From positions 3,650,501-3,714,500 of the forward strand of contig NZ_CP030265.1 in the NCBI RefSeq assembly GCF_008843145.1: a stretch of 64,000 nt of DNA, given 5' to 3'. The DNA is from Skermanella pratensis. Its GTDB lineage: Bacteria > Pseudomonadota > Alphaproteobacteria > Azospirillales > Azospirillaceae. Position numbers and translations under genes: made by a program. Under the pieces are notes generated by a model that did not search any database, was not told where the DNA came from, and worked only from the letters and a program-made list of their open reading frames with translations. Of the stretch, positions 7,217-64,000 are shown one piece after another (the stretch's first letter is position 1; each line of letters starts with the position of its first letter).

Positions 7217-9175
7217 ATGTTCACAGGAGGTTCTATTCCCAATTTGCGGCCGCCCTTCAAAATGTCAGTCTCGACGTCCAGTCCCCGGGCTTTCACCCCG
7301 CGATCCCAGTCGCCGCAGTCCCAGTCGGCTGCCCAACCGGTCCGTATCCAACCGGCCGCCCCGTCGGTATCGCCCGGCACGACGCTCGGCATCATCGTGA
7401 CCGTCGTCGCGGCCCTCTATTTCGGCCGGGACATCCTGATGCCCGTGGCGCTGGCGATTCTGCTCAGCTTCGCGCTGGCGCCGATCGTGATCCGCCTGCG
7501 CCGCTGGGGACTGGGCAAGATCCTCTCGGTGATCCTGGTCGTCCTGCTGATGTTCATGGCGATACTGGGCTTCGGCACCCTGGTGGCGAGCCAGCTGGTC
7601 GATCTGGCGCGCAATCTCCCGAGCTACGAGCAGAACATAAGGGCCAAGATCCAGAGCGTGCGGGGGGCGACCGAGGGAGGCGGCGGCGGCGTGATCGACC
7701 AAGCGTCGGAGATGCTGCGCGACCTCAGCAAAGAGCTGGAGCAGGCGACCGCACCCAGCACCGAAGGGGTCGCCCGCCAAGCCGGGGAAAATGGACGCTT
7801 CGACGTGCTGCGCCCGATCCCGGTGGAAATCCACGAGCCGCGTCCGTCGCCCTGGAACGAGATCCAGACCTTCCTGGGGCCGCTGGTCGCCCCGATCGGC
7901 ACGGCCGGCATCGTGCTGGTATTCGTGATCTTCATGCTGCTTCAGCGGGAGGACCTGAGGGATCGCCTGATCCGGCTGGTCGGGGCGAACGACCTGCACC
8001 GGACGACCGAAGCGATGGACGAGGCCGGGGCCCGGGTCAGCCGCTACCTGCTGATGCAGCTCATCATCAATGTCACCTACGGCATCCCGGTCGCGATCGG
8101 CCTCTATTTCATCGGCGTCCCGAACCCCGTCCTATGGGGCGTGCTGGCGATGGTGCTGCGCTTCATACCCTATGTCGGGCCGGTCGTGTCGGCCTTCTTC
8201 CCCATCGTCCTGTCATTCGCGGTGTCGCCCGGCTGGACCGACCCGCTGCTGACCATCGGCCTCTTCCTGGGGCTGGAGCTGTTCAGCAACAACGTGCTGG
8301 AACCCTGGCTCTACGGCAGCAGCACCGGCCTGTCGCCGCTGGCCGTGATCACGGCGGCCGTGGTCTGGATCACCTTGTGGGGGCCGGTCGGGGTCCTGCT
8401 CGCGACGCCGCTGACGGTGTGCCTGGTCGTCATCGGCCGCCACGTGCCGCAGCTCCAGTTCCTTCACGTGATGTTCGGCAACGATCCGGTCCTGCCGATC
8501 GAGGCCAGATTCTATCAGAGATTGCTCGCCCGCGACCCCGCGGAAGCGGCGGAACTGGCGGAGGAAGCCGCCGGCCAGCGTCCGCTCGCGGTCCTCTACG
8601 ACGAGTTGATCGTGCCTGCCCTCCACCTTGCGGAGGCCGACCGCCAGCGCGGCGCCTTCGACAACGCCACCCAGGCGGCGATCGCCGAAGGCATCGACAC
8701 CGTGGTCGAAACGCTCGACGATTACGAGGAGCCGCCGGCATCCGAAGGCGATGCCGTCAAAACTCCGGCAGCCCCCGTCCGCGTCCTGTGCATCGCCGGC
8801 CGGAACGAACTGGACCGGGCGGCGGCGGTCCTGACAGCCCATCTGCTGGAGCGGGACGGGTTCAAGGCGGAAGCCCTGCCCTGCGAGGCCGTGTCGCTCC
8901 GCAACCTCGCCAAACTGGACACGTCGGATGTCCGGCTGGTCTGCCTGTCGTATCTCAACCCCGGATCGGTCCAGCATGCCCGGCGGGTGGTGAGACGCCT
9001 GCGTGGCAAGCTCGGCACTTCGACTCCCATCGTGGTCGGGTTGTGGAGCGGACCAGGCACCTTCCCCCCTCCGGATGCAGAGAGCACCATATCGGCGGAC
9101 CGGCTGGAAACCACCCTGTCCGGAACGCTCGGCCAAATCAGGAACCGGCAAATCTTCAGGAGTACAGAGAGCTGA
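7217..9175 (+). CDS. AI-2E/PerM-family membrane transporter with long C-terminal cytoplasmic extension
   Basis: The product is 652 residues if the first ATG is used. The N-terminal half is a PerM/AI-2E exporter fold: hydrophobic segments around residues 55-120, a soluble linker, then conserved PYVGPVVSAF and a last membrane block (LGLELFSNNVLEPWLYG). Typical family members have 340-400 residues. Here another ~230 residues follow. The end of that extension (VRVLCIAGRNELDRAAAVLT, then VCLSYLNPGS and VVGLWSG) looks like a Rossmann-type, B12-binding-like domain. The start is uncertain: an AGGAGG at 7225-7230 sits inside the longest frame and favours a TTG start at 7244 or the ATG at 7262. A receiver-domain gene follows 69 bases downstream. 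Confidence 0.85.
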   Translation: MFTGGSIPNLRPPFKMSVSTSSPRAFTPRSQSPQSQSAAQPVRIQPAAPSVSPGTTLGIIVTVVAALYFGRDILMPVALAILLSFALAPIVIRLRRWGLGKILSVILVVLLMFMAILGFGTLVASQLVDLARNLPSYEQNIRAKIQSVRGATEGGGGGVIDQASEMLRDLSKELEQATAPSTEGVARQAGENGRFDVLRPIPVEIHEPRPSPWNEIQTFLGPLVAPIGTAGIVLVFVIFMLLQREDLRDRLIRLVGANDLHRTTEAMDEAGARVSRYLLMQLIINVTYGIPVAIGLYFIGVPNPVLWGVLAMVLRFIPYVGPVVSAFFPIVLSFAVSPGWTDPLLTIGLFLGLELFSNNVLEPWLYGSSTGLSPLAVITAAVVWITLWGPVGVLLATPLTVCLVVIGRHVPQLQFLHVMFGNDPVLPIEARFYQRLLARDPAEAAELAEEAAGQRPLAVLYDELIVPALHLAEADRQRGAFDNATQAAIAEGIDTVVETLDDYEEPPASEGDAVKTPAAPVRVLCIAGRNELDRAAAVLTAHLLERDGFKAEALPCEAVSLRNLAKLDTSDVRLVCLSYLNPGSVQHARRVVRRLRGKLGTSTPIVVGLWSGPGTFPPPDAESTISADRLETTLSGTLGQIRNRQIFRSTES

Positions 9176-9244
9176 TCGCTGCCGTCTCTTGTTGTTGTCG
9201 ATAAGGGAATTGCCAAACAGTCGAAGTGCAGAAGGGGAATTGCG

Positions 9245-9658
9245 TTGGCTGGAGTGCGTCTCATCATAGCCGAGGATCAGTTGCTGGTCGCGCTGGACAT
9301 GGAGACGATCCTGACTGGAGCCGGCCATGAAGTCTGCGGCATCGCCGCAAATGCCGACGAAGCGCTGACCCTGGTAGCGGAGCACCGGCCCGACCTGGCG
9401 CTTCTCGATGTCGATCTGGGCGGCACCGACGGGCTCGAAGCGGCACGCCTGATCATGGACCGCTGGCAGGTGCCGACGCTGCTGGTCACCGGTCACGTCA
9501 CCATGGAAATCGCGCGGGGGGTCGGGGTCGTCGGGCTGGTGCGCAAGCCGTTCACGGAGCGCACCCTGCTGGCCACCATCGACGCCTGCCTGACATGGCT
9601 CGCCGAAGGCGTGGTCCAGGAACCGCGGCCGCCGGGGTTCATCGGCCCGGACATCTAG
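9245..9658 (+). CDS. Single-domain response regulator (receiver only)
   Basis: This 137-residue protein is one CheY-like receiver domain. The acidic pair is Glu10/Asp11 in IIAEDQLL, the phosphoacceptor is Asp55 in LALLDVDLGG, the Thr is in LLVTGH and the Lys is in VRKPF. There is no output domain, so it should act through protein contacts or a phosphorelay. It starts with TTG, or with GTG three codons later, behind an AAGGGG ribosome site. It lies downstream of the AI-2E-family gene on the same strand; the two may be functionally linked, but no kinase is adjacent. Confidence 0.87.
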   Translation: MAGVRLIIAEDQLLVALDMETILTGAGHEVCGIAANADEALTLVAEHRPDLALLDVDLGGTDGLEAARLIMDRWQVPTLLVTGHVTMEIARGVGVVGLVRKPFTERTLLATIDACLTWLAEGVVQEPRPPGFIGPDI

Positions 9659-59121: not shown

Positions 59122-59883
59122 ATGTGCGAGCTCCTGGGCATGAACGCCAACGTTCCGACCGACATCTGCTTCAGCTTCGCCGGCCTGATGCGCCGCGGCG
59201 GGCAGACCGGCCCCCATTCCGACGGCTGGGGCATCACCTTCTACGACGGCAAGGGATGCCGCAGCTTCCATGATCCCCGTCCCAGCGCGGAGTCGGAGAT
59301 CGCCCGGTTCGTCCGCAGCTATTCCATCAAGAGCACCAACGTGATCTGCCACATCCGGCGCGCGAACCGGGGTCGCGTGGCGCTGGAGAACACCCATCCC
59401 TTCATCCGGGAGCTGTGGGGCCGCTACTGGACCTTCGCCCATAACGGCCAGCTCAAGGGCGTCAAGGCGCTGCCGCTGTCGGTCTACCAGCCGGTAGGCA
59501 GCACGGACAGCGAACACGCCTTCTGCTGGATGCTGGACCGGCTGCGCGAGCGCTGGGACCGGCCGCCGGCGTTCAGGACCCTGTGCCGGGAGATCAAGGC
59601 CCTGGCGCAGGAACTGAACGGCAGGGGCGTTTTCAACCTGCTGCTGTCCGACGGGCGCGCGCTGTTCTGCTTCTGCAGCACCAACCTCGCCTGGCTGACC
59701 CGACGGCACCCGTTCGGCAACGCCACCCTGATCGACGAGGATCTGAGCGTAGACTTCGCGCAGGAGACCACGGCCAGGGATGTCGTGACGATGATCGCGA
59801 CCCGCCCGCTCACCAGGGACGAGGAATGGACGATCATGGACAAGGGGTCGCTGGTGGTTTTCCGCGACGGGTGTTGCCTTTGA
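59122..59883 (+). CDS. Class II glutamine amidotransferase (YafJ-like)
   Basis: The 253-residue protein has the N-terminal nucleophile Cys2 ([10 protein letters not shown]), after Met removal, and conserved [25 protein letters not shown] and FAHNGQLKG, all of the YafJ-type class II amidotransferases. Their acceptor substrate is unknown. It is 41 bases after draB and may be in the dra operon. Confidence 0.92.
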
Positions 59884-61939: not shown

Positions 61940-62773
61940 TTACGCTTCGGACAGGACCGCGACCGCCTCGGCCAGGGGCATGTCGATCCGGGTGATCCCG
62001 TAGGTTTCGATGAATTTGGCCTCGTTCCGGGTCAGCTCGCCGGAGATCACCGCCCAATGCCGCCCGGCCGACCGCTTGATGATCTGGCGGGCGAAGGTCC
62101 GGCCGATCTCGCCGTCGAAGCGGCAGCCCAGGAACAGGAAATTGCGCCCCGCCCGCAGGTTCTGCACCACCGCCGGGATCGGCGACTGGATGTCGATCTC
62201 GGTCAGGACCTCGACGTAATCGCTGTCCGAAATCAGGTAGTTGCCGGCCGGCGCGACCGCGCCCATCGGCTTGTAGAGCACCCGGTTCCAGCCGGCGGCG
62301 GCGTCGCCGCTGGTCGGCTCGTTGTCGGGACCGAAGTAGCGGACCCATTCACCCAGGGATTGGGGATGGCTCATGCCCTGGATCTGGCCCCAGGACGGCG
62401 AGCCGCCGAGCGCGCGCGCCATGGTGTCGTCGTACCAGGTGTCGACGATCAGCGGCAGCTCCGCGATGCCGGCGAGGTAGCGGTGGAGCGCCGTGGGCTC
62501 CGGCCCCGTCTTGAACAGACCTGTCAGGATGGTTTCCAAGGTCCGGCGGTGCTTGTGGCTCTCGATGTACTGGCTGGCCGCGGTCAGGTGACGGCGGATG
62601 CGGCCGGGCACGGCAGCCTTTGCGGTCAGCGCCGCGACCAGTTCCTCCGGCGAGCGGGGGATCGGGCAAGCGCCCTCGACCAGGTCGAACACACCGGCGC
62701 CGAGATACGGGATCACCTGCCGGGCCTTCAGTCCGCCGGCGACTTCCGCCAGCAGGGTATGGGCTGTCGTCAT
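61940..62773 (-). CDS. SIR2-like domain protein
   Basis: The 277-residue protein has a SIR2_2-like domain: IPYLGAGVFDLVEG near residue 21 (NAD-binding GAG loop) and NFLFLGCRFDGEIGRTF near residue 225, the typical C-terminal strand of the group. Relatives hydrolyse NAD+ or deacylate; several act in phage defence. Whether this one is an active NAD+ hydrolase is unknown. It follows the DegT-like gene by 13 bases and is probably co-transcribed with it. It converges with the hybrid kinase gene. Confidence 0.78.
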   Translation of the reverse strand: MTTAHTLLAEVAGGLKARQVIPYLGAGVFDLVEGACPIPRSPEELVAALTAKAAVPGRIRRHLTAASQYIESHKHRRTLETILTGLFKTGPEPTALHRYLAGIAELPLIVDTWYDDTMARALGGSPSWGQIQGMSHPQSLGEWVRYFGPDNEPTSGDAAAGWNRVLYKPMGAVAPAGNYLISDSDYVEVLTEIDIQSPIPAVVQNLRAGRNFLFLGCRFDGEIGRTFARQIIKRSAGRHWAVISGELTRNEAKFIETYGITRIDMPLAEAVAVLSEA

Positions 62774-62786
62774 GGTCTGGATTCCT

Positions 62787-63980
62787 TCAGTAGATGGCGG
62801 CGCCGGCGCCGGAATTGACGGTGGCGTCCTTGAGCCGCTGCACGATGAACTCGACCTCGTCCTGGTCGAGCGCACCGTGGAACGGCACCGCGATCACGCG
62901 GTCGGCAGTCTTCTCGGCGACCGGGCAGTCGCCGCGCCGGCCGCCCCGCTCGGCGTAGAACTGCTGGATGTGGAGCGGGACGCCGAACGACGCCGAGTCG
63001 ATCCCCTGGGTCAGCATGTCCTCGATCACCGCGTTGCGCAGGCTGACCGAGAAACGGGTGCCGAGATGGACCGCGTAGGCGTGGCAATGGACCACGGTCA
63101 CGCCCGGCGCATGGTAGGGCGGCTTGATCCCCTCGAAGCTCTGCATCGCCGCCTCGTAGTACCCGACGACGGCGCGGCGGCGCTCCAGGATCTCGTCGAT
63201 CCGCTTCAGCTGGACAAGGCCGAGGGCCGCGTTCAGGTTGCTGAGCTTGGACTGCCAGGGAAGGTTATGGCTGATCACGACCGACTTCAGGTGCTCCGGC
63301 TCGCGCTTGCGCAGATAGCGCAGGCGGGACGCCAGGTCGTCGTCGTCGGTCACGATCATGCCGCCCTCGCCGCACAGCAGCGGGCCGGGTTCGGAGAAGT
63401 CGAACACCGCGCAGTCGCCGAAGCTGCCGACGATCCGCCCGTGATAGGTCGAGCCGATCGCCTCGGTCGAATCCTCGATCAGGACGACCCCACGCTCGCT
63501 GGCCAGCGCCCGCAGCTCGTCCCAGGGAGCGGGGTGGCCGTTGGTGTTGCCGGCGATGATCGCCCTGGTGGCGGAGGTGATCCGCTCCGCCGCCTTGACC
63601 GGGTTCAGCGTATGCGACCAGTAGTCGATGTCGGAGAAGACCGGGTTGGCGCCGGCCAGCGCCACGGCATGGACGACCTGGTGCCAGCCATAGGGCGAGC
63701 ACAGGATGTCGTCGCCGGGACCGAAGCCGTAGGCCTTCAGCGCCAGCATCATGGCCATGGTGCCGCTGGTCACCGCGACCGCGTGGCGGCGGCCGACATA
63801 GGCGGCGAAAGCCTCCTCGAAGGCCTCGGTCAGGCGGCCGTCGTTAAGGCTGGCGGAAGTCAGGATGCGCTCGATCACCCGGGTCTCGGCGGCGCCGATA
63901 TCAGGCTGGGTCAGCGCGATATCGCCGGGAAGCTCGTCGTCGCTGTCCTCGGTCTCCTCCAGGCCGGGAGTATCGGTCAT
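62787..63980 (-). CDS. DegT/DnrJ/EryC1/StrS-fold protein lacking the PLP lysine
   Basis: The 397-residue protein has the DegT-family fold: LTQPDIGAAETRVIERIL, AVAVTSGTMAMMLALKAYG, SPYGWHQVVHAV, EDSTEAIGSTYHG and GFGVPLHIQ-like C-terminus. In family enzymes the PLP Schiff base is a lysine in a segment like FSFHAIKNITCAEGG. Here that segment reads FDFSEPGPLLCGEGG, with Gly in place of Lys. It is therefore unlikely to be a normal aminotransferase. Its ATG overlaps the stop of the gene upstream (right) in an ATGA junction. The SIR2-like gene follows. Confidence 0.85.
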   Translation of the reverse strand: MTDTPGLEETEDSDDELPGDIALTQPDIGAAETRVIERILTSASLNDGRLTEAFEEAFAAYVGRRHAVAVTSGTMAMMLALKAYGFGPGDDILCSPYGWHQVVHAVALAGANPVFSDIDYWSHTLNPVKAAERITSATRAIIAGNTNGHPAPWDELRALASERGVVLIEDSTEAIGSTYHGRIVGSFGDCAVFDFSEPGPLLCGEGGMIVTDDDDLASRLRYLRKREPEHLKSVVISHNLPWQSKLSNLNAALGLVQLKRIDEILERRRAVVGYYEAAMQSFEGIKPPYHAPGVTVVHCHAYAVHLGTRFSVSLRNAVIEDMLTQGIDSASFGVPLHIQQFYAERGGRRGDCPVAEKTADRVIAVPFHGALDQDEVEFIVQRLKDATVNSGAGAAIY

Positions 63981-64000
63981 GCCGCTTCCTCGCGCTCGGC
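63977..64000 (-). CDS. 3' end of an upstream gene (7 codons visible)
   Basis: An open frame enters from the right edge and ends ERE-EAA-stop at 63977. Its TGA overlaps the ATG of the DegT-like gene, as in translationally coupled operons. Only seven codons can be seen; no product can be named. Confidence 0.45.
   Translation of the reverse strand, partial: AEREEAA

Follow-up and report, generated by a model that had tools for sequence, protein, structure and literature searches.

In a stretch of 64,000 nucleotides from the 5.87-Mb genome of Skermanella pratensis (G000:C1:3650501-3714500, hereafter the window), two neighbouring genes encode a DegT-like protein of 397 amino acids (aa) (62787..63980, minus strand; Pfam PF01041, E 3.2e-87) and a SIR2-like protein of 277 aa (61940..62773, minus strand; Pfam SIR2_2 PF13289, E 1.3e-18). 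Both partners of this pair, and not just one of them, are predicted from their sequences to be pseudoenzymes that are linked to nitrogen fixation (nif) genes and maintained under purifying selection, which is the new point of this study. We hold, with somewhat more confidence than doubt, that the pair constitutes a nif accessory module of two enzyme-derived, no longer catalytic binding proteins serving nitrogenase maturation or protection. Poor understanding of accessory genes limits the transfer of nitrogenase to new hosts, and two such genes recurring in proteobacterial nif clusters are named here. We chose the ATG at 62773 as the start of the SIR2 gene, which the open reading frame (ORF) list opens at the GTG at 62875; 13 bases separate this ATG from the degT stop.

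Linkage of the pair to nitrogen fixation

Relatives were searched with patterns of the SIR2 alignment, and the best 80 of at least 554 encoding stretches, ranked by likeness to the query, were fetched as named loci. Together with L009 (a 20-kb stretch of the window's own genome) and four further loci, these make up a set of 85, or 84 distinct ones, as L015 and L062 share one contig. Since the patterns drew on the Trp motif or on the IDIQ loop (both described below), tallies over this set are biased toward these SIR2 features, as well as toward relatives of the DegT-bearing type found in the window. Another nif gene is present in 81 of the 85 loci, and in the other four (L034, L051, L089, L095) the contig starts at most 2.2 kb upstream of SIR2. 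NifT lies upstream of SIR2 and on the same strand in all 81 loci having NifT, DegT does so in all 78 with a full or partial match, and a homologue of the 93-aa ORF ahead of DegT (at most 1.5 kb upstream) is found in 72/85 loci. No fusion of DegT and SIR2 was detected, separate ORFs being matched in all 76 loci with both, and where open frames overlap, in L031, L033 and L127, they are in other frames. Named records of alpha-, beta- and gammaproteobacteria show the pair recurring as a nif module, and the tie to nitrogen fixation for which the first-pass annotation had proposed a co-occurrence survey is borne out by these counts. That annotation had also named a mainly surface-sugar context outside nitrogen fixers as an outcome that would speak against such a tie; the pair was found among nif genes instead, in a survey that included no dedicated search for sugar genes.

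Residues of DegT were tallied over 76 loci, leaving out those without a DegT match (L016-L018, L059, L069, L082, L095) and two with a partial match, L051 at a contig edge and L081 over the last 57 residues; L089 was kept, though partial at a contig edge. In L081, a metagenome-assembled genome of the Oxalobacteraceae, only the final 57 DegT residues are present, between nifT and SIR2 (L081:2342-2512).

Because the Trp and IDIQ features had been built into the first search patterns, a second census was taken with profile searches of 398 genomes of the phylum, four to six candidates being scored per genome in the SIR2, nifH and DegT scans. The SIR2 profile yielded 17 hits, 12 strong (E < 1e-90; at least three of these genomes, G000, G042 and G043, were already in the search profile) and 5 distant (E 1e-32 to 1e-39), and NifT adjoins SIR2 in all 12 strong ones. 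A nifH gene scored above the cut-off in 38/398 genomes, G293 and G462 being counted as nifH-negative with split nifH pieces below it. With the related genomes of the sample treated as independent, the Trp-type SIR2 occurs in 10 of the 38 nifH-positive genomes versus 2 of the 360 others (Fisher p 1e-9), and the nif-type DegT in 6/38 versus 0/360 (Fisher p 5e-7). In both nifH-negative genomes with a Trp-type SIR2 (G224, G425), nifB, nifZ and nifT adjoin SIR2. The six nif-type DegT proteins, one of which is the window's own, score 484-643 bits, the next match in the 398 genomes reaching 265 bits; all six genomes carry nifH and a strong SIR2 hit, and the two genes are neighbours in four of them. 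The tie of the pair to nitrogen fixation is strongly supported. Loci L126, L134 and L109 (G425 and G224, of one genus) carry nifB-nifZ-nifT-SIR2 plus extra SIR2 fragments, some with internal stops, with nifH not above the cut-off.

Lost active-site residues and conserved motifs

The DegT-like protein has retained the aminotransferase fold: its PF01041 match reaches 293.5 bits (cut-off 19.8), and its AlphaFold model (pLDDT, the predicted local distance difference test, 87.5) is nearest by Foldseek to GDP-perosamine synthase 3dr4 (E 7.9e-34, TMt 0.91). Gly199 (codon 63384..63386, minus strand) takes the place of the lysine that forms the Schiff base with pyridoxal phosphate (PLP), as follows from a gapless alignment of FDFSEPGPLLCGEGG in the window protein with FSFHHTKNITSGEGG in L001, the other DegT protein of the genome, FSFFGNKIITTGEGG in 3bn1 and FSFHAIKNMTCAEGG in ArnB 8sng. 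Among the 76 loci this place is held by Gly (40), Ser (35) or Ala (1) and never by Lys, and the six nif-type proteins of the 398-genome sample show G, G, G, S, L and Q, with Lys in 0/6. The place thus differs among relatives (G, S, A, L, Q) while other DegT positions stay invariant, and going by these alignments the lack of the lysine is a family trait, neither chance nor a sequencing error. Both ORFs, their strand and the glycine were all correctly called in the first-pass annotation, which had in addition taken the other motifs of the fold to be intact. This is true of the aspartate pairing with the pyridine nitrogen (D170, kept in 76/76), but not of the serine binding the PLP phosphate, which is replaced by Asp194 (codon 63399..63401, minus strand) in 76/76 loci and in 6/6 sample proteins. 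L001, 3bn1 and 8sng all have Ser at the phosphate place and Lys at the Schiff-base place, and in Spr1654 the corresponding Ser194 holds the PLP phosphate, according to the part of that paper available to us (PMC5936713). Aspartate in place of this serine makes an empty PLP pocket likelier.

Similarly, the SIR2-like protein retains the fold of the NADase domain of ThsA, its AlphaFold model (pLDDT 88.2) matching the ThsA SIR2 domain by Foldseek (E 3.8e-11, TMq 0.68, 17% identity), and has lost residues that bind and cleave nicotinamide adenine dinucleotide (NAD+). Trp113 (codon 62435..62437, minus strand), aligned with TNYD of ThsA 6lhx, stands where ThsA has its catalytic Asn (Asn112); Trp is found here in 85/85 loci, a count favoured by the search pattern, and in 12/12 strong hits of the profile search. 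Where the catalytic His would be expected (its ThsA counterpart being taken as His152), the window protein has Met170 (codon 62264..62266, minus strand; YKPMG versus YKLHG of 7uxt), and of the 85 loci 72 have Leu, Ser or Ile and three have His (L016-L018, all without DegT). The SIR2 proteins of L123, L124, L125 and L133 in the sample keep His as well, and as the nif regions of L123 and L124 also hold DegT, loss of the His does not simply track DegT. The GAG loop, which the first-pass annotation had noted as NAD-binding in a partner that it took as intact, has Pro in its middle in 75/85 relatives, and together with the Trp and Met substitutions this contradicts the view of an intact NAD enzyme. 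In ThsA itself, as described in the accessible portion of the study, the N112A variant neither binds nor cleaves NAD+, and H152A abolishes cleavage too, perhaps via the oligomer (PMC7272460). No SIR2 model of NCBIfam matched the family, the one match being a weak one to PseG in 1/46 members.

All five distant SIR2 hits (L128-L132, from G530, G254, G190, G244 and G247) keep an Asn (INRD), with Leu or Met for the His and TELMGGFAIP in the place of the loop. Four of these genomes are nifH-positive, G247 being the exception, and nif genes lie in four of the five fetched loci. From its residues, this group is a possible intermediate in active-site loss.

Both genes are under constraint, as seen from the low ratios of nonsynonymous to synonymous substitution rates (dN/dS) between close relatives picked by hand (0.04-0.21 in 15 pairs for DegT, 0.06-0.38 in 16 pairs for SIR2). 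The most conserved ten-residue block of the SIR2-like protein (conservation 0.99) is TEIDIQSPIP, residues 191-200 (62174..62203, minus strand), with a pLDDT of 56. Likewise, the most conserved block of the DegT-like protein (0.94) is its C-terminal tail GAGAAIY, residues 391-397 (62790..62810, minus strand), with a pLDDT of 55; 73 of the 76 proteins end in GAGxAIY plus 0-1 residues and the other three in GAGAEITL. As these blocks are highly conserved yet modelled by AlphaFold with low confidence, the models suggest that the SIR2 loop and the DegT C-terminus are partner-binding motifs. The loop (EIDIQTPIP) is retained in loci without DegT, and its partner should therefore be something other than DegT.

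Gene neighbourhood and possible function

The SIR2 and DegT genes form the end of a nifB gene run that extends beyond the window end and reads in L009, on the minus strand, nifB, a ferredoxin (assigned by eye), a TPR-like protein (with a weak TPR match only), an LRV protein with an FeS domain, two NifZ-domain proteins, a NifS-like cysteine desulfurase, NifT, the 93-aa ORF, DegT and SIR2. The 3' end of the 93-aa ORF lies at 63977..64000 (minus strand) and the ORF runs past the window (complete at L009:3478-3759, minus strand); its stop overlaps the start of degT in ATGA, and its match to DUF6129 (E 0.046) is weak and below the cut-off. A simple pattern for sigma-54 promoters gave no match in L009, inside the operon included, and a simple pattern scan found a single TGT-N10-ACA, at L009:9503 directly ahead of nifB. 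The nitrogenase switch genes draT and draG, beside which the first-pass annotation had placed the pair, are 3-6 kb away on the opposite strand; between them and the pair lie an ArsC-like ORF plus the genes for a GATase and a hybrid histidine kinase on that opposite strand. The pair belongs to the nifB run and not to the draTG group. The glutamine amidotransferase is of class II (GATase_4, E 1.5e-112; 59122-59883, plus strand), lies downstream of draG, and is found likewise in many Azospirillum loci.

A 2Fe-2S ferredoxin ORF (nearest solved structure 1i7h) occurs in 44/85 loci, between DegT and SIR2 in 35 and at most 3 kb after SIR2 in nine. Beside it, 32/85 loci have an ORF of about 75 aa, without a Pfam match, between the DegT and SIR2 genes (e.g. 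L036:9744-9989, L058:9756-9986). In the alphaproteobacterial locus L016 (G043:C106), a relative of FeSII (Shethna protein II; PDB 5ffi, E 2.1e-38) is encoded directly downstream of the nif SIR2 (ORF 8880-9281, minus strand); FeSII-like ORFs at most 3 kb after SIR2 are found in only 2/85 loci.

We propose that during nitrogen fixation the two proteins would be made along with the products of the nifB-nifT genes, and that they would act by binding in a step of nitrogenase maturation or protection. The SIR2-like protein would probably dock, through its EIDIQTPIP loop, on a partner that many proteobacterial nif systems share, and the DegT-like protein, docking through its GAGAAIY tail, may be an adaptor in only part of these systems. 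If this is true, changes at the lost catalytic sites should be silent, and changes in the two short conserved motifs should not.

Several observations weigh against this proposal. Of the 38 nifH-positive genomes, 24 have no SIR2 hit, so that SIR2 is not essential to nitrogen fixation, and in two of the six genomes with both genes (L123 and L124, from G303 and G373) the pair is non-adjacent within one nif region, with nifB and others in between, both SIR2 proteins keeping the His. The sampled genomes being related, the Fisher p values overstate independence. For 80 of the 85 loci the search pattern itself included the SIR2 loop, yet the Trp-type proteins of the profile sample keep it too, and the low pLDDT of both motifs may stem from a shallow alignment. 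In the DegT-like protein, segments 141-153 and 169-188 near the former active site are conserved, which fits a retained ligand, and PDB titles indicate that K188A ArnB (4oca) and K185A WbpE (3nys) still carry PLP, so that lysine loss alone does not prove an empty pocket.

These last points lead to a ligand sensor, a doubtful but serious alternative in which the altered pockets would bind a small molecule (PLP, a sugar nucleotide, ADP-ribose, homocitrate or similar) without turnover, binding altering the action of the pair on nitrogenase. It would account for the conserved or invariant pocket-near segments NGHPAxW (147-153) and EDSTEAIGS (169-177), and structures of Lys-to-Ala mutants of close relatives contain PLP or sugar ligands, going by the titles of 3dr4, 4oca and 3nys; the phosphate-anchoring Ser is however Asp in 76/76 DegT proteins, and the ThsA variant that lost its Asn no longer binds NAD+. 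Rather unlikely, to our mind, is a scaffold, as a filament or complex, of an inactive NADase domain and an inactive aminotransferase that would hold or shield nitrogenase or an assembly intermediate of its iron-molybdenum cofactor (FeMo-co), an oxygen or redox protection parallel to FeSII. This idea draws on the SIR2 relatives ThsA, KomC and AVAST5, solved as helical assemblies according to PDB titles, on the ferredoxin ORF in 44 loci, and on the FeSII relative that follows SIR2 in L016. Working enzymes with altered chemistry are also unlikely; these would use K286 or K384 as a relocated lysine, or else a pyridoxamine phosphate (PMP) mechanism without lysine as in ColD and E1, together with NAD+ chemistry without Asn and His. 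Both lysines are invariant in the 46 aligned sequences, so that the relocated lysine considered in the first-pass annotation has its candidates, but in the alignment neither falls on the Schiff-base place. The ColD/E1 entries 3gr9, 3b8x and 3bcx match the same profile as the nif DegT; ColD and E1 presumably have His in place of the lysine, whereas in the 76 loci and six sample proteins the site is G, S, A, L or Q and never His, the phosphate Ser is gone, and two unlike active sites have been lost side by side.

A very unlikely reading makes the pair an NAD+-linked partner of DraT and DraG that reads or tunes the ADP-ribosylation of NifH. The proximity of draT and draG in the window and the presence of DraT within 20/85 loci suggested it; the co-occurrence trend runs opposite to expectation, DraT being present in 3/12 Trp-type SIR2 genomes versus 20/24 nifH-positive genomes without a SIR2 hit (p 0.001, many of the 24 coming from few families). 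We rejected the NAD+-based link on this trend, on the lack of DraT in 9/12 Trp-type SIR2 and 4/6 nif-type DegT genomes, and on the lost NAD+ residues. Hardly credible, finally, is an unrelated pair for anti-phage defence that happens to sit among the nif genes, which had also been raised for this DNA: SIR2 is nearest to ThsA, DSR2, KomC and AVAST5 by sequence or fold, and weak PADLOC matches to ThsA occur in 33/46 aligned members (best E 1.2e-6), but the catalytic Asn is lost and the His usually so, the place among nif genes is constant, with nif genes as the neighbours identified in a survey that included no search for a TIR (thsB) neighbour, and the SIR2 protein of R. capsulatus is NifA-dependent in the available part of the report (PMC6925177). 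The lost residues and genomic place disfavour it.

Published nif-cluster relatives and known systems

Several uncharacterised nif-cluster proteins in print, namely the SIR2 proteins Rcc03262, PST_1325, ZMO1821 and that of Rhodovulum, and the DegT protein BRADO5411, can be tied to the families of the pair by name and place, their own sequences standing outside our alignments. The R. capsulatus SIR2 protein Rcc03262, encoded beside NifT, was found in the wild type and not in a nifA1-nifA2 deletion (PMC6925177). In P. stutzeri, PST_1325 is tabulated ahead of nifH (PMC11332353), and gene 5 of the Rhodovulum nif operon, SIR2-like, follows nifT (PMC9412634). ZMO1821 of Zymomonas is up under N2 fixation and was guessed to be a deacetylase, which prompted an acetylome study (PMC8600466; also PMC8594446). 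The nif SIR2 family lacks the residues needed, which argues against this guess, and if the named proteins share the residues of the family, the deacetylase reading would be wrong. Like the SIR2 gene studied here, Rcc03262, PST_1325, ZMO1821 and the Rhodovulum gene are described as SIR2 family or SIR2-like genes in nif clusters, near nifT, nifZ, LRR genes or nifH; in the accessible parts of these papers we found no mention of lost catalytic residues or of a DegT partner. The open-licence part of the literature on nif, ThsA and ArnB residues, a scope too narrow to show absence from print, yielded in its available text no description of a nif DegT without the lysine or a nif SIR2 without the Asn.

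For the DegT partner, the closest counterpart in print is BRADO5411, compared here by its table line only, which is listed with the ferredoxin BRADO5410 and with NifZ, LRV and TPR genes, as in the nif context of the pair. In the part of the paper at hand, this gene set is reported from photosynthetic bradyrhizobia, which can fix N2 outside the plant, and three rhizobia unable to do so are said to lack its core (PMC3899966).

FeSII, a relative of which adjoins SIR2 in L016, is a protein distinct from either member of the pair. Among characterised systems, the ThsA SIR2 domain, the NADase of Thoeris, is the closest solved relative of the SIR2-like protein by sequence and fold. Unlike ThsA, which in Thoeris comes with a SLOG domain, the nif SIR2 has Trp for Asn, has usually lost the His, matches a single Pfam family over its 277 aa (E up to 1) with no second Pfam domain, and resides in a nif context. 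The nif DegT in turn shares with GDP-perosamine synthase and ArnB the fold, the pyridine Asp and, for the most part, the SGT motif, at about 28-33% identity, and differs from them by the loss of the Schiff-base Lys and the phosphate Ser, by its own NGHPAxW and C-terminal GAGAAIY motifs, and by its nif neighbours.

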